Source: a virus. Taken from it: 27,354 bases of DNA. This document shows positions 2,346 through 20,159 of the stretch, piece by piece. Within the stretch, counting starts at the first letter, position 1, and every line of letters starts with the position of its first letter. The stretch spans positions 1 through 27,354 of IMG/VR virus record IMGVR_UViG_3300010042_000019; one strand, 5' to 3'. The notes below the pieces were generated by a model. That model did no database searches, was not told the DNA's origin, and saw only the letters and a list, made by a program, of their open reading frames with translations. A program made the translations under genes and the position numbers.

Positions 2346-3140
2346 CTACTCTCCCATGAACTTTCTATATTGCTCATCAAAAGTTTTAACCCAACCTTTT
2401 GGCTCGACACCAGGCTTAATTAAAAACTCATGATAACTTTTTAAGTGCGGTAACTCAACGGCAGACAATTTCTGCCCTGAATACTTACCGCCAGGGAACT
2501 CCCACGAACCTGCCGCTAAATTACGCATAGCCTTTACGGTGCTTAAAACTTTAGCAGGCTCACCATCAAAAGGCATCGGTTCTCGTAACCATTCAGGCTC
2601 TTCCACCTCAGAGGCTCGAGGTTGAGCTACAGTGGCCTTAAGCTTGTCGATAGCTACCGACACTTGGCTTTTAGCTGGCGTTGAACCTTGAGACCTTGGC
2701 GCCTCTTTAGATGGTGCCTGTTTATTGGGCTGGTTAGGGCGTTTTTTACCAGAAGCTCCATCGTCGTCGGTTTGCGTGAGCCCAATGGCCGCGCAATAAT
2801 AATATCTGCGCAAGTAGGTCATCGTAGAACCAAAACTCTGTGGATCTTTTTCCTCTTCAGGAGAGATAATAACCTCACCCGATTGCCACTCACCCGACTC
2901 TGCGTGCATGACGGTGGTCACAAGCAAATTCTTGCCCTCGCGCACACGGCCTGTTTGCGTAATGGCTAAGCCATACTTTACCGTGATGGGTCGAGAAGCA
3001 TCGTAACAAGCTTGTAAATCAGCGTACTTGTAACCGTAGCCTTGAGAATCTCTTGAAACACCTTCAAGCTCCGATTGCACGCCTAAGACGGCGGTAGCGA
3101 GATGTTTAATTGATTCAGATTGGTAGACCACGGTTAGCAC
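2346..3140 (-). CDS. erf: Erf-family single-strand annealing recombinase
   Basis: A 264-aa protein that matches the Erf superfamily: an N-terminal helix (SIKHLATAVLGVQSEL), GYKYADLQACYD, a GLAITQTGR strand, and the family hallmark FGSTMTYLRRYYYCAAIGLTQTDDDG at residues ~103-128 (Tyr-x-x-Arg-Arg-Tyr followed by an acidic DDDG). Erf proteins form rings that anneal complementary single strands and circularise or recombine phage genomes in the cytoplasm. Residues ~130-190 are a low-complexity Pro/Ser/Lys linker, and the C-terminal ~70 residues form a separate small domain (WEFPGGKYSGQKLSAVELPHL), perhaps for partner binding. SD AAGGAGT precedes the start; a near-consensus promoter lies just upstream. 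Neighbours are replication and nuclease genes. Confidence 0.88.
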   Translation of the reverse strand: MLTVVYQSESIKHLATAVLGVQSELEGVSRDSQGYGYKYADLQACYDASRPITVKYGLAITQTGRVREGKNLLVTTVMHAESGEWQSGEVIISPEEEKDPQSFGSTMTYLRRYYYCAAIGLTQTDDDGASGKKRPNQPNKQAPSKEAPRSQGSTPAKSQVSVAIDKLKATVAQPRASEVEEPEWLREPMPFDGEPAKVLSTVKAMRNLAAGSWEFPGGKYSGQKLSAVELPHLKSYHEFLIKPGVEPKGWVKTFDEQYRKFMGE

Positions 3141-5740: not shown

Positions 5741-6130
5741 TTGGGAGCACAAGTACAACAAAGAGAAGTTAATCCATTTGCCAATGTTTTAAAACAGGCC
5801 GCAAGTAACCCTCAGAAGATTTTATGGTTCTTCCCAGAGACAAATCTAGGGAATGGTCATAACGGCTTAACTGAGATCGCAAAAGAAGAGGCTGATCTTG
5901 ATCCTAAAGATCTACAAGAGGGCCAGTTCCTCGTGTTCTTAAACCGTGCCTGCACGCAAGTAAAGATGTACGCACCAGGAAATGTGATAGCGCACTTTAA
6001 GATGCCTAGTGGTGCGGGTAGAATTAACCCACAAGCGATTAAGTTCTTACCCCGTGTGTTTAACGGTAAAGAACTTAACTACACACAAGCTCTAGATCTG
6101 GCGATCAGAGAAGCTTTTAACAAAAACTAA
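5741..6130 (+). CDS. IS66 Orf2 (TnpB)-like protein, stand-alone
   Basis: A 129-aa protein. Residues ~25-110 follow the IS66 Orf2 pattern: a hydrophobic strand (KILWFF), a GNGHNGLTEIAKE motif resembling (R/N)GF(D/N)GLA, a spacer with DPKDLQEGQFLVFLNRA resembling DPF-SG-LFVF-NR, TQVKMYAPGNVIAHFKMPSGAGRI resembling (I/L)K-LWxDxxGLxLFxKRLExGRF, then a short TPAQL-like end. IS66 Orf2 is an accessory protein required for IS66 transposition, with unclear biochemistry. There is no IS66 transposase here, so this is a domesticated or ancestral relative. It starts with TTG, preceded by GGGAG. The function in the phage is unknown; DNA-associated or regulatory roles are possible. Confidence 0.55.
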   Translation: MGAQVQQREVNPFANVLKQAASNPQKILWFFPETNLGNGHNGLTEIAKEEADLDPKDLQEGQFLVFLNRACTQVKMYAPGNVIAHFKMPSGAGRINPQAIKFLPRVFNGKELNYTQALDLAIREAFNKN

Positions 6131-6181: not shown

Positions 6182-6394
6182 ATGGCTAGCAGCGTATTCG
6201 CGCAAGTTCTCGGTGGAGATCGCAAAGAATTATCTGATGTGTCAACAGTAGGTGATGTTCGTCGCAAGATGGATGTTCCTCAAACTTACCAAGCAATGCT
6301 TAACAACAAAGCGGTAAGTGATTCAGAAAGCGTAGAGGCTTACAACTACGTTTCTTTTACTGAAAAAGTAAAAGGTGGATCTAAAAGTAAGTAG
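6182..6394 (+). CDS. Ubiquitin-like beta-grasp modifier with near-terminal Gly-Gly
   Basis: A 70-aa protein with the beta-grasp layout: strand 1 VFAQVLGG, strand 2 RKELSDVS, helix TVGDVRRKM, strand 3 YQAMLNN with the KAVSD turn, and a last strand YNYVSFTEKV ending in KGG (Gly65-Gly66) and four extra residues, SKSK. The GG near the end is typical of modifiers activated by E1 enzymes; the SKSK tail would have to be cut off by a peptidase, and a JAMM peptidase is encoded downstream. Such proteins are conjugated to targets or carry sulphur. The strong SD AAAGGAG and a terminator-like hairpin just after the stop suggest high expression. The family call rests on pattern and operon context; conjugation has not been shown. 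Confidence 0.75.
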   Translation: MASSVFAQVLGGDRKELSDVSTVGDVRRKMDVPQTYQAMLNNKAVSDSESVEAYNYVSFTEKVKGGSKSK

Positions 6395-6400
6395 TAACGT

Positions 6401-6432
6401 AGGGGCTCTAAATCATTAGGGCCTCTCTTTTT
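6401..6432 (+). terminator. Terminator/attenuator between the Ubl gene and the E2-like gene
   Basis: AGGGGCTCTAA pairs with TTAGGGCCTCT (11 pairs, two of them G-U) around an ATCA loop and is followed by C-TTTTT. The next gene starts 15 bp later on the same strand, so partial readthrough would yield more Ubl transcript than transcript for the enzymes. Confidence 0.8.
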
Positions 6433-6447
6433 AACGAGATAAATAAA

Positions 6448-8886
6448 ATGACCGAACAAGAGTTAGATATAGTTTTAAAAGTAAATAGGTGTGTCTTTGG
6501 CGTTCCCCTTCAGTGGTGGGCGCAGATCGCTGGCGTTTATACGGCCCCTCTTGATGTAGTAAATAAAACATACCGACTTTTTATGCCATCTAGGATTACG
6601 CTCGATGAGATCTATCTTAATGATGTCGAGGCGTGGGTGCTCAATAAGGTTCGCGCAAATAGTGTCATACGCACCCTAACACCTCAACAACTAGACTCAC
6701 TGTCCTCGGCACTATCAGTGGTGAACCACACCAGAGAGTACACCTTAAGTCTTGCGGTTATTGCTATGGAACACTGGTCAGGTAATGGATCATACATCCC
6801 TCAGGTTGTTGGTGACGCCACCCCGTTAAACCTGCCCTTAAGTGGCCCAACCGATCACTATGGCTTTCCTCTAGAGCTATGGGCTCAAACCAATGAGGTT
6901 GTTTTAAGCACAGGAGAAAGCGTTCTCTGGACTGGCGGCAACACCACCTATAGGTCACTTTCTGCTAATGAACTTATAGAATACTTAAGAGCTAGGGCTA
7001 TATTCTTGTACCAACAAAATATGGCGTTAATTAATACCCGTGGTGAGATATGGGCAGAGCTACGCCCGCCCAATATGTCTGTGTCTGGTGGTTTTGCGCA
7101 AACGCATATTACAAGAATAACGAGCGTTTTTTATTTCTCAAGCCAAGCGGCTCCGCGCTTTATATCAGGCTATAGAAGTTGGTTTGCCTCTCCTCGGCCC
7201 TCTGTGAGCGCTAATGATAGCATCTTCAATGTTGGAGCTGGCTTACGTGACTGGGCCGCTGTCGCTACCCCACCGTCAGCTCGAGAAGAGCCCGCGCGTC
7301 CAGTAAAGATTGCCGGTATATTTACGATACCTAGATTTAAGGATGAGCACCCTGAAGAGTATAAAAACTATCTCAAGATGGGTCTTCCATTTCTCACTTC
7401 TTTTATAAGAGAAGATTGCGAAGATAACAGCTATAACCGCGCACAGCTTCAAACGCTCTCGACAGTTAATGACCGAGCGATTGAGACGCGAACTGATATT
7501 TCCACATGGGATGTTTTAAAGATCTTTAATGAGGGTGATAGTATAATTATGAGCGACACTAATCAGGTAAACAGAAGGTTCTTTGAGCCTCGCGTAGATT
7601 CAGAGTTCTTAGGCGGTGAGCCACAGGCGGTAGAGGTAATTAAACCCCTCGATATTAGCGCCATCTTCTCAAGCGGGGTGAAGCGGTTAATTAAGGAAAA
7701 AGAAGCCTATCTCGCGCGAGCACAGAGAAAGATCCAGGCGACCTTGTCGCAGTTTGAAACTCAGCGCTTAAACTACATGAGAGAAAAAGAGATCTATAAC
7801 AACCTCACCTCTGAGTCAGAGACGGTGGCGACAGGGAAGATCGAGAAAGAGCTTAAAACCATCAACTTAACCGGCGTGTTTGAGGTGGTAAAATATGATA
7901 AAGAGAAAAACCAATTTACATTTAGGAACAGAAAACCCTTCCATATGAAGGTCGCGCCCTCATACCTTGCGAGGATGAGTGATCTCTATCGTGGTGTGCA
8001 GAGTGTGTACTTAGGCTTCTTTGATATTCATGTTGATTACTCCACGTTTAAAACCCACGTCTATCCTTATGGCGATGAATACGGTAAGTCGTTTTATTAC
8101 GGCAATTGCCCAACTCCCTTTGTGGGACCAGCAAAGAATCTCTGTTACGGTTCTGAGGCTGCAAAGCTTGATCGCATTTCTAGAGAGAAAGATCTCGTTG
8201 CCCTTATGCGCTTAATTGATCTCATCATGACCCAATACAGTGAGGGCGTGACACCCTACAGATCTATTGAGAAGTTCATTCGTGATCAGCGGCGCACAGA
8301 GAACTTAAATAAACACGACATCATCCCTACGTTTAGGAAATCTGGCCTTGCGGGCTTTACCCCCGAGCAGAGAGATGTGATTATCAACAATCACCGTGAG
8401 GTTCAAGATTACTGGTACGCTCGCAATCCAGATGGTTACGGTGAGGGAAGCATCGGCCAAAACCTTGTGATGTATGATTTTTGGAAAAATAAGTTTTCAG
8501 ATCCAAACAGACCACCACGCTGCATCTTCAAAGACGACCACACCATTAACCACTGTGACTGTCTTCTCTCAACAGAGACAGAAGCTAACCGTAGAGTTAT
8601 CGGTGGTGTTGGCGCATCTGCTGATGCAGAAGAGGATGGCGATGTCTTGGCGGTGAGAAGCGCTGGTTCGGCTCTAAGTGAATCGTGGCGTAGTGAAGTG
8701 CTCGCGGGATTATCCGCTGGTCTCGCTTCTTATAACACCGATCCGAGATCATTCGGTGTTGTCCTTGGTGAACATTACGACACTGATACTGGGCCCACGC
8801 CAGGGCCTCTAGCGCCTGAGGACGAAGAGGATGACGGTGATGAGGATGTTCAAGAATTACATGGCCACGCAGATATACCGTATTAA
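6448..8886 (+). CDS. 812-aa protein with possible divergent E2-like region (ubiquitin-like cassette)
   Basis: No full-length family was recognised. The N-terminal ~270 residues contain two related motifs (FGVPLQWWAQ at 17-26, YGFPLELWAQ at 138-147), suggesting a duplicated unit. Residues ~409-465 are a charged coiled coil. Residues ~475-610 alternate strands (GVFEVVKYDKEKNQFTF, VYLGFFDIHVDY), then THVYPYG, CPTPFVGP and LCYG (Cys566), then a helix (LVALMRLIDLIMTQYSE). This recalls the strand, HPHV-like, C-x-G and helix order of prokaryotic E2/UBC-like proteins, making Cys566 a candidate active site with His537 nearby. A Cys/His cluster (C692, H698, H702, C703, C705) may bind zinc, and the tail is very acidic. 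The E2 role is inferred mainly from operon position between Ubl and JAMM genes. Confidence 0.5.
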   Translation: MTEQELDIVLKVNRCVFGVPLQWWAQIAGVYTAPLDVVNKTYRLFMPSRITLDEIYLNDVEAWVLNKVRANSVIRTLTPQQLDSLSSALSVVNHTREYTLSLAVIAMEHWSGNGSYIPQVVGDATPLNLPLSGPTDHYGFPLELWAQTNEVVLSTGESVLWTGGNTTYRSLSANELIEYLRARAIFLYQQNMALINTRGEIWAELRPPNMSVSGGFAQTHITRITSVFYFSSQAAPRFISGYRSWFASPRPSVSANDSIFNVGAGLRDWAAVATPPSAREEPARPVKIAGIFTIPRFKDEHPEEYKNYLKMGLPFLTSFIREDCEDNSYNRAQLQTLSTVNDRAIETRTDISTWDVLKIFNEGDSIIMSDTNQVNRRFFEPRVDSEFLGGEPQAVEVIKPLDISAIFSSGVKRLIKEKEAYLARAQRKIQATLSQFETQRLNYMREKEIYNNLTSESETVATGKIEKELKTINLTGVFEVVKYDKEKNQFTFRNRKPFHMKVAPSYLARMSDLYRGVQSVYLGFFDIHVDYSTFKTHVYPYGDEYGKSFYYGNCPTPFVGPAKNLCYGSEAAKLDRISREKDLVALMRLIDLIMTQYSEGVTPYRSIEKFIRDQRRTENLNKHDIIPTFRKSGLAGFTPEQRDVIINNHREVQDYWYARNPDGYGEGSIGQNLVMYDFWKNKFSDPNRPPRCIFKDDHTINHCDCLLSTETEANRRVIGGVGASADAEEDGDVLAVRSAGSALSESWRSEVLAGLSAGLASYNTDPRSFGVVLGEHYDTDTGPTPGPLAPEDEEDDGDEDVQELHGHADIPY

Positions 8887-8896
8887 GGAGTGCTAA

Positions 8897-9922
8897 ATGT
8901 TTTCAGATTTTAAGATAGTTTTACCGCGAGAGATTGATCAGAAGATCATGTACATGGTTCATAAGGCTGATAAAGAAATATCAGGCCTAGGTGATGCCGA
9001 GATTGATCTTGAGAATAAGCTCATCATCATTAAGAGCGCCTTTCTCTTAAAGCAAGAGTGTGGTCCGACCGAGACCGAGATAGATGAACAAGCGGTAGGT
9101 GCGGCGATGTTTCAGGCCCATGAGGACTTTGTGGCCTCGCAAGGTGCGGTAAATCGCAGCATCAAGTTCTGGTGGCACTCTCATGTGAACATGGGTGTGT
9201 TCTGGTCAGGTACGGATAAAGAATCCATTGCGAAGCTCTCAAAGAATAGCTGGTTTAGCCACATCGTCTTTAATAAAAAAGGTGAACGGCTAGCTGCGAT
9301 TGGATACCCCGTCACCATGGAGTCTTGTGGTTTAACTAAGACCATCGTCCAGTATAACGACAAAATCGACATCATCCACGAGCCTAAAGCTCCATCAAAT
9401 AACGAAGCGTGGGACTTAGAGTTTAAAGAGAACTATAAAGAGAAGAGTCACGTAACCACACAGGGCAATTGGCGCTCGATCACCGATGTCGATGAGTCAA
9501 AACTTGATCCTAAAGACATACTTCATAAAGATGAATGGCACATTATCTACCTTGATAACAAAGAGCTTGTTTGGGGAAGAGGAGCTAAGGGCGTAAGGAG
9601 CTACCATAGAATGCGCTCTGATGTTTGTGTGCTTTACCCGTTCTTACTTAAAGAGATGTCTAACGAGGGCTTGCGCCGCCTTTGGGTTGGCATTAATGAG
9701 TTTGGTGGGAGCGCCCCATCAGATAAGAAGAACCTTGATCTTATAGGAGCTGAGGTTGCCGCAAGAACTCTACGTGCTTTGCGATCAGGAGAGGAGAGTC
9801 CTTTCCCTGATGATGATCTTGAGGGTGAGACCTACGATTTAGAAGATAAAGATTTTTACACACAACAAGAGCTTGATGATTTCTATAAAGAAGGCGGCTA
9901 CGGAAGAGGATATTCAACATGA
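8897..9922 (+). CDS. JAMM/JAB (MPN+) metallopeptidase, deubiquitinase-like
   Basis: A 341-aa protein. The N-terminal ~140 residues are a JAB/MPN domain with a complete zinc motif: Glu27 in KEISGLG, then HSHVNMGVFWSGTD, giving His94, His96, Ser104 and Asp107 in the exact H-x-H-x7-S-x2-D spacing. In prokaryotic ubiquitin-like systems such enzymes trim the modifier to expose Gly-Gly and may remove it from targets; the Ubl here ends GG-SKSK. The C-terminal ~190 residues form an extra unknown region (KDEWHIIYLDNKELVWG, a helical stretch, then a very acidic tail), much longer than a minimal JAB protein of ~150 aa. SD GGAG is 6 bp from ATG; the stop overlaps the E1 start (ATGA). Confidence 0.9.
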   Translation: MFSDFKIVLPREIDQKIMYMVHKADKEISGLGDAEIDLENKLIIIKSAFLLKQECGPTETEIDEQAVGAAMFQAHEDFVASQGAVNRSIKFWWHSHVNMGVFWSGTDKESIAKLSKNSWFSHIVFNKKGERLAAIGYPVTMESCGLTKTIVQYNDKIDIIHEPKAPSNNEAWDLEFKENYKEKSHVTTQGNWRSITDVDESKLDPKDILHKDEWHIIYLDNKELVWGRGAKGVRSYHRMRSDVCVLYPFLLKEMSNEGLRRLWVGINEFGGSAPSDKKNLDLIGAEVAARTLRALRSGEESPFPDDDLEGETYDLEDKDFYTQQELDDFYKEGGYGRGYST

Positions 9923-10587
9923 AACCAGAACAATTAGTAAGACAGTATGACATTTTACCACCATCCAAAACTGAGAAGATTATCGCCGTCATAGGTGCTG
10001 GCGCTATTGGGTCGCAAGTCGTTATGTGCTTAGCTAAAATGGGCTTTGATAACATCAGGGTGTTTGATGATGATGTGGTCTCAGAAGAGAATATCTCTAA
10101 CCAATGGTTTGGCGAGATAGATATTGGTTTTAAAAAAGTAGATGCTCTTGCTGAACACGCCTGTAGAATGGCGATGACCATGCCTGCCAGTTATCCGGTG
10201 AGAGTTACCGAAGACGCCGGTGATCTTGCGGCTGTGGAGCTTATAATTTCAGCAGTAGACTCGATGGAAGCTCGTAAGGTGATTTATGAACGCGCCCAAA
10301 CCACATCCACCGTGACCCACCTTATTGACCCTAGGATGAGCGCAGAGTCAGGGGCTATCTATGTGGTGGATATGATGGATAAGTCCTCACGTGAGGCCTA
10401 TGAGAGCTTTCTGCACACTGACGGTGAGGCAATACAAGAGCCATGTACAGCTAAAGCCACCATGTACTGTTCGATGGTCCTCGCTGGCCTTACTTGCGGC
10501 ATCGTAAAAGATGTTGTGACCGGCAATAAGCTTGTAAAGAGTTTGATGATTTCAATGAAGAATTTAGATGTTATGGTTTTTAGATAA
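9919..10587 (+). CDS. E1-like / ThiF-family adenylyltransferase
   Basis: A 222-aa ThiF/E1 fold protein. Nucleotide-binding glycines lie in VIGAGAIGS (Gly26, 28, 31); the strand end VFDDDVVSEENISNQWF matches the D-x-Ve-x-sN-x-nRQ block; GFKKVDAL supplies the conserved lysine region; IISAVDSMEARK matches the DaxDn-xaR block. Cys176 in EPCTAKATMYC is the candidate thioester cysteine; no CxxC zinc pairs are seen. These enzymes adenylate the C-terminal Gly of ubiquitin-like proteins and pass them to a cysteine. At 222 aa it is close to the minimal ThiF core. It is translationally coupled to the JAMM gene and ends the cassette; Ubl activation is inferred from context. Confidence 0.88.
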   Translation: MKPEQLVRQYDILPPSKTEKIIAVIGAGAIGSQVVMCLAKMGFDNIRVFDDDVVSEENISNQWFGEIDIGFKKVDALAEHACRMAMTMPASYPVRVTEDAGDLAAVELIISAVDSMEARKVIYERAQTTSTVTHLIDPRMSAESGAIYVVDMMDKSSREAYESFLHTDGEAIQEPCTAKATMYCSMVLAGLTCGIVKDVVTGNKLVKSLMISMKNLDVMVFR

Positions 10588-16710: not shown

Positions 16711-17445
16711 ATGAAACTACAAGACCTGATCCGAGATCTAAAGCTTGAGCTTATTAAAAACGGCGAGAAGCTAGATGCCACTAACCCAAACTACCTTGAG
16801 GCCACAGAAGCTGCTGCCTCTAAATACGACATCAAGGTTGTTGTTCTGCCAAAGCTCATTACAAAGTCTCCGACCTTCGGGCCTGGTACGGCTGAGTGGT
16901 TAAAGAATGCGCAAGCGGAGCTAGGTAAGAAGGAGTCAGATCCTGAGTTTCAAAAGAAGATGAATCCAATGTGGGCTAAAGCCGGTCTTCCAAGCTTTAA
17001 GGGCTTAGTCGGTTCACCAAGAGCCTGGTGCTCGCTCTTTGTAGTAGCTGCACTCACATGGGGTGGTTATAAAACAAGCAAGCTTAATGCTGCCGCTATC
17101 AGTGGAGATAACTTTGGCCAAAAGATCGAGTGGAAAACTCAAGGCATACCTAAGGGCGCCATTGTTCGTATTAATCACTCTAGTAAATGCACATCTGCTA
17201 GCGGGAATCATATTGGTTTCTCTGGCGGTGATTGCACACCTACTGATGTAGCTTCTGGCTCGTTCAATATGCTTGGCGGTAATCAATCTGACAAAGTATC
17301 AATCGCAGCCTTCCCAGTAAACGACATCTGTTCTGTATCGTGGCCCGTAGAGACTGTGGAGGGCGTTAAGATCGCTTTACCAGGTAAGGTGCTAGTGTCT
17401 AATGGGTGCAAGGGTAAAGCTGAACCAACAGGGAGCACACGCTAA
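16711..17445 (+). CDS. CHAP-type endolysin (peptidoglycan hydrolase)
   Basis: A 244-aa protein. After an N-terminal ~55-residue helical region, residues ~60-205 follow the TIGR02594/CHAP-like cysteine peptidase pattern: W-LKNAQAELGKKE, then AWCSLFVVAALTWGGY with Cys107, IPKGAIVRI, GNHIGFSGG with His167, and MLGGNQSDKVSIAAFP with Asn191. In phages these enzymes cut the peptide stem or amide bond of peptidoglycan at the end of infection. There is no signal peptide, so release would need a holin. It lies just downstream of the membrane protein and lipoprotein genes of the lysis region. SD AAAGGAA, 9 bp from ATG. Confidence 0.8.
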   Translation: MKLQDLIRDLKLELIKNGEKLDATNPNYLEATEAAASKYDIKVVVLPKLITKSPTFGPGTAEWLKNAQAELGKKESDPEFQKKMNPMWAKAGLPSFKGLVGSPRAWCSLFVVAALTWGGYKTSKLNAAAISGDNFGQKIEWKTQGIPKGAIVRINHSSKCTSASGNHIGFSGGDCTPTDVASGSFNMLGGNQSDKVSIAAFPVNDICSVSWPVETVEGVKIALPGKVLVSNGCKGKAEPTGSTR

Positions 17446-18504: not shown

Positions 18505-18799
18505 GAAACACTCAGTGATAGAGGAGATATTCCAGGTAGAAGTGGAGGTGCCTAATGCACGGGCACTATTAGATACCTCGATTGCTATCATCTCAGATGA
18601 GCTAAAGAAGATTAAGAAGATGTCAGAGATAGGTCTAGCGATCCCGCTTGATCCTGAGTACATGAATGCGCTTTTAAACATCACAAAGACTCTTGTGACC
18701 GTGGATAAGAACGAGAACGACAATCCTATTGAAGAGGACGACAAGCTCACTGATGAGCAATTAAAAGAAGCAGCTAGGAAGGCTTTAGGTTTACCATGA
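18491..18799 (+). CDS. Small acidic helical protein, possible small terminase partner
   Basis: A 102-aa, acidic, helical protein (IIEEIFQVEVEVPNARALLDTS; DELKKIKKMSEIGLAIPLDP; DEQLKEAARKALGLP). It overlaps the previous gene by 14 bp and the methyltransferase by 4 bp. Position in the packaging operon suggests a terminase-associated role; no motif confirms it. Confidence 0.4.
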   Translation: MSKSKKHSVIEEIFQVEVEVPNARALLDTSIAIISDELKKIKKMSEIGLAIPLDPEYMNALLNITKTLVTVDKNENDNPIEEDDKLTDEQLKEAARKALGLP

Positions 18800-19746
18800 G
18801 ATTATTACTTGGTGATTGCTTAGAACAGATGAAGACTTTAGACAGTCAGTCAGTAGACTGTTGCGTGACGTCACCGCCCTACTATGGGCTTCGCGACTAC
18901 GGTGTTTCCGGCCAACTTGGGCTAGAGGAAACACCGGAAGAGTTTGTTAATAATTTAGTAAAGGTATTCCAAGAGGTCAGGCGTGTACTTAAAGACGATG
19001 GGACGCTTTGGTTAAACCTTGGAGACAGCTATGTTGGTGGCGGGCGCGGCGGCAATAGTGACGCGATAACGGGCGAGGGTAAGAATAAAAGCCAAGTTTC
19101 AAAACTTCGCAAATCCTTTCGCCGTGATAAAGCGGAATGCGCACCAAACAACAAACAAAAAATCATTGATCTTAAAACAAAAGACTTAATGGGTATTCCG
19201 TGGCGAGTAGCTTTCGCGCTGCAAACAGATGGATGGTATTTACGCCAAGACATTATTTGGAATAAACCAAACGCCATGCCAGAGTCAGTCACCGATAGGT
19301 GTACAAAAGCGCACGAGTATATTTTTTTATTATCTAAATCTAAAAAATACTACTTTGATAGCAAATCAATCAAGGAGCCCGCCGTGTATTCTGGTAAATT
19401 TACAGAACCTACTCGCGGCATGGGTTACGGTGTTGCGCGTGGTGCAAACGGGCGTTCGCCAGATCGCGATGGCGGCTTTAAGCCGAATGATGGACTACGG
19501 AATAAGAGGTCTGTGTGGACGGTAAATACAAAGCCATTCAGGTGTGCGCACTTTGCCACGTTTCCGCAAGAGCTAGTGGAGCCATGTATTTTGGCGGGAA
19601 GCCCAGTTGGGGGAATCATTCTAGATCCTTTTTTTGGAGCAGGGACCACTGGCGTAGTAGCTAAAAAACTTGGTCGCGATTGGGTTGGGTGTGAACTGAA
19701 CGAAGAGTACCTCGAGATCGCTAAGCGTAGAATAGAGGCTGTGTGA
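18796..19746 (+). CDS. Orphan DNA methyltransferase (beta class, TSPPY)
   Basis: A 316-aa amino-methyltransferase of the N4-cytosine/N6-adenine class. The catalytic motif TSPPY (residues 25-29) precedes the AdoMet motif (ILDPFFGAGTTG, ~275-286), the order of the beta class. GDCLEQM near the start and GCELNEEYLEIAKRRI at the end fit the family; the region ~75-240 is the target-recognition part. The base modified cannot be read from this. No restriction enzyme is beside it, so it probably shields phage DNA from host restriction or marks it for packaging. Coupled to the genes on either side by 4-bp overlaps. Confidence 0.92.
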   Translation: MRLLLGDCLEQMKTLDSQSVDCCVTSPPYYGLRDYGVSGQLGLEETPEEFVNNLVKVFQEVRRVLKDDGTLWLNLGDSYVGGGRGGNSDAITGEGKNKSQVSKLRKSFRRDKAECAPNNKQKIIDLKTKDLMGIPWRVAFALQTDGWYLRQDIIWNKPNAMPESVTDRCTKAHEYIFLLSKSKKYYFDSKSIKEPAVYSGKFTEPTRGMGYGVARGANGRSPDRDGGFKPNDGLRNKRSVWTVNTKPFRCAHFATFPQELVEPCILAGSPVGGIILDPFFGAGTTGVVAKKLGRDWVGCELNEEYLEIAKRRIEAV

Positions 19747-20159
19747 TAGACATCGAGCTAAGACTAAACACACCCGCTGATGAGTCTTTCATCTACGACT
19801 CGTGGCTTAAGAGTTACCAAGAGCAGAACCGTGACTTTAAGCGCATGGGTATAAGAACTTACTATGCTGGCTACAAGAAGATCCTGATGGGTATCCTTGA
19901 TTCAGCACTCGTGGTGATCGCTTGTAACCCTGATGATAAGGACCAGATCTATGGCTTTATCGTAGCTGAAGCTGATGCCGATATAGTTCATTACCTTTAC
20001 GTGAAGTACACGTTTAGGAAGCTTGGTATCGCAAGACGGTTGTTGCTGAACGTGCATCCAGAGCTAAGAGAGAAGCCGCTCATCCACACGTTTGCTAATC
20101 CCATTTCAGATAAGAAACAGTCAGAGTATTTACTAACCTATAACCCATTTTTAAGGTGA
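19743..20159 (+). CDS. GNAT-family acetyltransferase
   Basis: A 138-aa protein with a compact GNAT fold: IELRLNTPADESFIYDSWLKSY at the start, ALVVIAC, QIYGFIVAE strands, VHYLYVKYTFRKLGIARRLL holding the acetyl-CoA motif A (R/Q-x-x-G-x-G/A variant: RKLGIA), and a C-terminal segment. It starts with GTG overlapping the methyltransferase stop. The substrate is unknown. GNAT genes in packaging modules recur in phages, where they may acetylate virion or host proteins; that is inference. Confidence 0.8.
   Translation: MIDIELRLNTPADESFIYDSWLKSYQEQNRDFKRMGIRTYYAGYKKILMGILDSALVVIACNPDDKDQIYGFIVAEADADIVHYLYVKYTFRKLGIARRLLLNVHPELREKPLIHTFANPISDKKQSEYLLTYNPFLR

Follow-up and report, generated by a model that had tools for sequence, protein, structure and literature searches.

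Four consecutive genes of a bacteriophage appear to encode a working, phage-specific and reversible ubiquitin-like protein-conjugation cascade, a reading to which we assign a probability of about 0.8. The genes lie on an IMG/VR virus record of 27,354 bases (hereafter the window) and specify a ubiquitin-like modifier (Ubl), an 812-aa E2-like protein, a JAMM metallopeptidase and an E1-type activating enzyme. Because the same four-gene set is found in the same order in many unrelated phages, we conclude that bacterial viruses probably attach protein tags of their own during infection. The conjugation reading is based on four homologies, on conserved catalytic residues, on predicted beta-grasp and E2-like folds, and on conservation of the genes both as a unit and in their order.

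In the proposed cycle, each catalytic step of which we infer from the known chemistry of E1, E2 and JAMM enzymes, the JAMM peptidase would trim the SKSK tail of the Ubl to expose Gly66. The E1 would then adenylate the Ubl C-terminus and hold the Ubl as a thioester on Cys176, from which it would move to Cys566 of the E2-like protein. The E2-like protein would attach the Ubl to lysines of target proteins, and the JAMM peptidase would take the tag off again.

The cassette spans positions 6182-10587 on the plus strand, with the Ubl, 812-aa, JAMM and E1 genes following one another directly (Table 1). A sequence-only reading of this DNA had placed an 812-aa gene between Ubl and JAMM; that frame is present, as are the other three at the positions the reading gave, and all four are open. 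The Ubl and 812-aa genes are separated by 53 bp and the 812-aa and JAMM genes by 10 bp, while the JAMM and E1 genes share 4 bp, and AGGAG-type ribosome-binding sites precede Ubl and JAMM. The 4-base overlap suggests one translationally coupled operon. The assignment of the cassette to a phage genome was borne out by genes for a terminase large subunit (5e-42), a portal-type protein (3e-9) and a major head protein (1e-9) on the same contig, and a bacterial origin was rejected on these grounds.

Table 1. Positions in the window of the cassette genes, their key residues and one recombination gene.
Feature	Position	Strand	Description
Ubl	6182..6394	+	70-aa single beta-grasp modifier; GG = residues 65-66 (codons 6374-6379), then 4-residue tail SKSK
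812-aa E2-like protein	6448..8886	+	~450-aa N-terminal region, E2-like domain, acidic C-terminal tail
E2/UBC-like domain	7798..8367	+	residues 451-640 of the 812-aa protein
Candidate catalytic Cys566	8143..8145	+	TPFVGPAKNLCYGS; relatives HPHxxxxGxxC(W/L)G
JAMM/JAB metallopeptidase, 341 aa	8897..9922	+	Glu27 (8975-8977); H-x-H-x7-S-x2-D residues 94-107 (9176-9217)
E1/ThiF-fold single-domain activating enzyme, 222 aa	9919..10587	+	GAGAIG 26-31 (9994-10011); candidate Cys176 (10444-10446)
Erf-like ssDNA-annealing protein	2346..3140	-	recombination gene upstream, opposite strand; outside the cassette

Several other frames of the window were also assigned. A 129-aa frame directly 5' of the Ubl gene (5741-6130) has a weak match to IS66 Orf2 (TnpB_IS66, E 0.018). 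The 244-aa protein at 16711-17445 resembles a baseplate hub family (PHROG_1259, 5e-17) over the tail-lysozyme part of that family and is probably a cell-wall hydrolase. At 18796-20159, adjoining the terminase gene, a DNA methyltransferase (PHROG_67, 2e-86) is followed by a GNAT acetyltransferase-like frame.

The Ubl was described in the sequence-only reading as a 70-aa beta-grasp protein with a near-terminal GG, and the family evidence agrees. Searched alone, the window Ubl gave no Pfam match. Among 27 aligned family members, nine match ThiS (best 9.6e-5), and a profile of the family gives an almost full-length match to SAMP2 (4e-8). An AlphaFold2 model built with the alignment of these 27 members shows a beta-beta-alpha-beta-beta-beta order (pLDDT 85.7), and its best Foldseek matches in the PDB are NEDD8, Mth1743, ubiquitin and MoaD (probability 1.00, TM 0.6-0.75). 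Two Ubl types occur among the relatives: a short one, the type of the window, that ends at GG or close to it, versus one with KSG(A/G) and a long extension in crAss-like and Bacteroidetes phages. In the crAss-like and Flavobacterium phages L002-L011 this extension has ~100-200 aa, lacks a terminal GG and often ends in a motif like SxxEIDxMF.

The E1 assignment, a ThiF-type protein with a GxGxxG loop and a candidate Cys176, likewise held. The window E1 matches Pfam ThiF at 7e-22, and the candidate cysteine lies within EPCT and is present in 172 of 174 relatives; its PCT context resembles that of the active-site cysteine of eukaryotic E1s. In alignments of seven phage E1s and of the 174 relatives, G26, D50, D52, N58, K73 and R119 are near-invariant, and the family profile finds UBA1 (2.8e-15), UBA5 and MoeB. 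PADLOC matches of the window E1 to CBASS E1-E2 proteins are explained by the shared E1 domain only. Strict monophyly of the phage E1s was not obtained, with sequences from bacterial metagenome-assembled genomes (MAGs) falling among them; the node that contains them has 80/81 support.

The window JAMM protein carries the full H-x-H-x7-S-x2-D motif that had been read from it (HSHVNMGVFWSGTD, residues 94-107), and its upstream catalytic Glu27 lies within KEISGLG. Among 2000 random 341-aa strings matching the window in composition, none contained the motif. Glu27, His94, His96, Ser104 and Asp107 are invariant in eight phage JAMM proteins, a profile of the JAMMs of other phages recognizes the window protein with 96.9% probability, and CSN5 and archaeal JAMM1 are among the matches of the family profile. 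Pfam Prok-JAB matched the window protein alone at 0.03, short of the cut-off. In 25 relatives the Ubl ends exactly in GG and the adjacent JAMM gene is kept all the same, which argues that JAMM does not serve maturation alone and favors a role in tag removal.

The 812-aa protein, tentatively called an E2 in the sequence-only reading, gave no Pfam match reaching the cut-off when searched alone. Its residues 451-640 fall in a phage family with an invariant cysteine, Cys566 in the window, and 27 aligned sequences keep both Cys566 and Gly568 without exception; the cysteine also recurs in all 31 matches of the profile in a wider set, which shares some members with the 27. The classical E2 motif is HPNxxxxGxICLD, and the relatives' conserved HPHxxxxGxxC(W/L)G lies near it. 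One relative of the wider set reads HPNVNESGGICWG (HPN...ICWG), as in eukaryotic E2s. Pfam UQ_con matches six of the 27 family members (best 2.3e-4), and the PDB entries matched by a profile of the region are nearly all eukaryotic ubiquitin E2s (best 2.8e-4). The AlphaFold2 model of residues 451-640 (pLDDT 82.8, pTM 0.79) has the E2 order of helix, beta-meander, loop and helices, and its top Foldseek matches in the PDB are mostly E2s, though weak (best E 0.028; E2 TM-scores about 0.3-0.5). Together, these sequence and model results converge in support of the E2 identity, with no one test being decisive. An alternative composition of the 812-aa protein as a fusion of PRTRC-F and PRTRC-B was tested and not supported.

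Outside the E2-like domain, the N-terminal half of the protein is long and poorly conserved, and the acidic C-terminal tail holds a small C-x6-H-x3-H-C-x-C cluster from residue 692 on. Ten relatives (L023, L030, L031, L033, L045, L052, L055, L060, L108 and L005) have Cys-rich E2 tails with 12-30 cysteines and CxxC repeats. The Cys-rich tails of several phage E2-like proteins are possible fused zinc-binding, E3-like modules; a search for a RING or zinc identity in Pfam gave no convincing match.

Ubiquitin-like conjugation systems are recognized by a Ubl with a C-terminal glycine and a beta-grasp fold, an E1 with an adenylation site and a cysteine, and an E2 with a UBC fold and an active-site cysteine. 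By sequence and predicted fold the window encodes all three, the individual E2 matches being weak.

Related phages carry the cassette as a unit, as the earlier reading had anticipated. Single-sequence searches of IMG/VR and of genomes with the window E1 and the 812-aa protein returned no matches, so alignments were needed to find relatives. Scanning IMG/VR with E1 and JAMM alignments gave 197 E1 loci in 145 clusters at 90% identity, and the unit was counted over the 114 dereplicated viral E1 clusters with 4.5 kb or more of upstream sequence. A JAMM gene was detected in 100 of these, E2 in 91, Ubl in 104 and all four in 80; the order Ubl, E2, JAMM, E1 holds in all 80 complete viral loci. Many viral E1 loci with no detected E2 have a 480-660-aa frame in the E2 position, and limited profile sensitivity probably accounts in part for the undetected E2s. 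With shallow hhalign profiles, no link emerged between the window Ubl or E2 and crAss or PRTRC proteins; this was resolved with the IMG/VR relatives.

The cassette also occurs in cultured isolates, namely Flavobacterium phage FpV4 and crAss-like phages including the gut phage crAss001 (gp79-gp76). Some phages, such as L005, lack an adjacent JAMM gene. Xanthomonas jumbo phages carry the cassette in this form, and in Xanthomonas phage PhiXhv-12, which has no adjacent JAMM, the Ubl already ends in GG. Additionally, bacterial MAGs of Myxococcales, Planctomycetes and Zixiibacteriota carry the cassette. On Myxococcales and Planctomycetes MAG contigs it is seen at L177-L183 and L186-L190, and one Myxococcales MAG holds two copies (contigs of 240 and 414 kb).

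Several observations count against the conjugation reading. The crAss-type Ubls have KSG and a long extension rather than GG, and some phages lack an adjacent JAMM. The window E2 reads TPF, the E2 fold matches are weak, and the window Ubl, E2 and JAMM each fall below Pfam cut-offs when searched alone.

Among the closest known parallels are the PRTRC systems of plasmids, which we take to correspond to type 6d among the operons of Iyer et al. 2006 (PMC1779556) and which had been proposed to hold similar parts. PRTRC has the order Ubl (C), E2 (B), JAMM (A) and ThiF E1, and the phage cassette shares it, together with a single Ubl with a C-terminal glycine and a JAMM with HSH...FFS..D. Of the curated models, PRTRC_ThiF matches the window E1 best, but the 62.9 bits fall short of the curated cut-off of 144.75, and the window Ubl, E2 and JAMM gave no match to the curated PRTRC A, B and C models; ThiF and B from L012, used as positive controls, pass. 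The proposed similarity of parts stands, with the curated cut-offs unreached by the window. Furthermore, no E, F or ParB gene of PRTRC was seen with the phage cassette, the PRTRC E1s form a separate clade with 100/100 support, and type 6d E2s lack the HPx histidine, whereas most phage E2s have HPH and the window itself has TPF.

Bil tags phage virions, and a likeness to Bil had also been proposed from the sequence. BilABCD combines a Ubl, an E2, a JAMM deubiquitinase and an E1 in one operon (PMC11354881), its gene order being taken here from the operon name A-B-C-D. The likeness holds for the parts and their order and fails for the features that set Bil apart: two tandem, ISG15-like Ubl domains, an E2 CEHH motif (Cys, Glu+6, His+8, His+13), and an E1 with two adenylation domains, one inactive and one active, and a Cys domain (PMC11354881). 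In contrast, the window Ubl is a single domain of 70 aa, the 222-aa E1 has one ThiF domain, and the sequence after Cys566, YGSEAAKLDRISRE, lacks CEHH. Thus, the phage cassette is neither a PRTRC member by the curated models nor Bil by its published features, and by its parts and order it may work as both do.

Similarly, the archaeal SAMP/UbaA/JAMM1 system shares a MoaD-like Ubl (the SAMP2 profile match), a MoeB-like E1 and a JAMM1-like peptidase with the phage cassette, but SAMP conjugation uses no E2 (PMC11354881) and the phage cassette has one. The phage case in a 2006 survey of prokaryotic Ubl systems is the lambdoid tail-assembly pair TAPI/TAPK, a Ubl and a JAB peptidase (PMC1779556). It resembles the cassette in pairing a phage Ubl with JAB and differs in lacking E1 and E2, in lying among tail genes and in having JAB fused to NlpC, for which the window JAMM gave no match in Pfam. 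The crAss001 genes form the same cassette (gp79 Ubl, gp78 E2-like, gp77 JAMM, gp76 E1), differing in a Ubl with KSGA and a long C-terminal extension and in an E2-like motif HSH...CTG; its record annotates only ThiF (gp76) and a metalloprotease (gp77). No paper on a phage Ubl-E2-JAMM-E1 cassette was found in the open-access literature, a search outside which subscription papers and most preprints lie.

In the main phage clades the cassette lies among replication and recombination genes, apart from structural genes, with a Toprim primase, DnaB helicases, AAA_24 ATPases, a uracil-DNA glycosylase (UDG) and a PDDEXK-like nuclease as recurrent neighbor families. These counts come mostly from two clades, a large one of Bacteroidetes phages and one around L113-L175, and the window and L016 are in none of the largest neighbor clusters; for the window itself, a link to replication is thus a lead, whose one support there is the nearby Erf gene. 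Based on the position of the cassette within that gene module in the main clades, we tentatively and speculatively suggest that, given conjugation, proteins of replication or recombination may be the main targets. In eukaryotes PCNA and Rad51 are targets of SUMO and ubiquitin, a likeness for phages tagging their own replication and recombination proteins. That in several phage lineages a core Ubl system of the replication module does so, with an E2 sometimes fused to a Cys-rich, E3-like tail, is a conceivable but doubtful extension.

Alternatively, given conjugation, the phage could tag host proteins such as defense sensors, polymerase or proteases early in infection, for counter-defense or host takeover. 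We regard this as somewhat unlikely: the wide but patchy spread of the cassette and its place among early or replication genes agree with it, and a viral counterpart is plausible since immune proteins are tagged by the Ubl systems of hosts (CBASS; PMC10097602), but the synteny with replication genes points to a core role. Some role beyond all those named here is, given conjugation, similarly doubtful. Use of the cassette as a Bil-like weapon that tags structural proteins of competing phages, or as protection of the phage's own virion, is unlikely even if conjugation occurs; the four parts and their order are shared with Bil, which is active against phages (PMC11354881 for BilABCD), but the defining features of Bil are absent and the cassette lies with replication rather than structural genes in the examined clades.

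With TPF where relatives have HPH, the window E2 may be slow or inactive, which raises the prospect of a decaying cassette whose E2 is catalytically dead here while the family is active elsewhere. The poorly conserved N-terminal half of the 812-aa protein would fit such decay. It is nevertheless quite unlikely, given that the Cys-x-Gly motif is intact, as are the GG and the catalytic residues of JAMM and E1, that the four frames are open with the 4-bp overlap preserved, and that the near relatives L016 and L242 carry HPY at this position, so drift at the third position is typical of the lineage. Finally, a sulfur-carrier system, in which a ThiS/MoaD-like Ubl would donate a thiocarboxylate through a ThiF/MoeB-like E1 for phage cofactor, nucleotide or tRNA modification, draws on the ThiS and MoaD matches of the Ubl family, the ThiF resemblance of the E1 and the annotation of phage ThiF proteins as thiamine biosynthesis, but is very improbable in view of an E2 with an invariant cysteine that has no role in known sulfur transfer, a JAMM retained where the Ubl has no tail to trim, and the lack of a sulfur-transfer partner among the recurrent neighbor families examined, which are replication, recombination or unassigned.

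Bacterial ubiquitin-like conjugation has so far been known from host operons, notably those of anti-phage defense. If the conjugation reading is true, a complete Ubl-E2-JAMM-E1 set borne by phages of many lineages, including the cultured crAss001 and FpV4, would reverse this host-defense picture and lead one to ask which proteins are tagged by viruses. It would also bring a large new set of E2-containing systems into the debate on the origin of ubiquitin.
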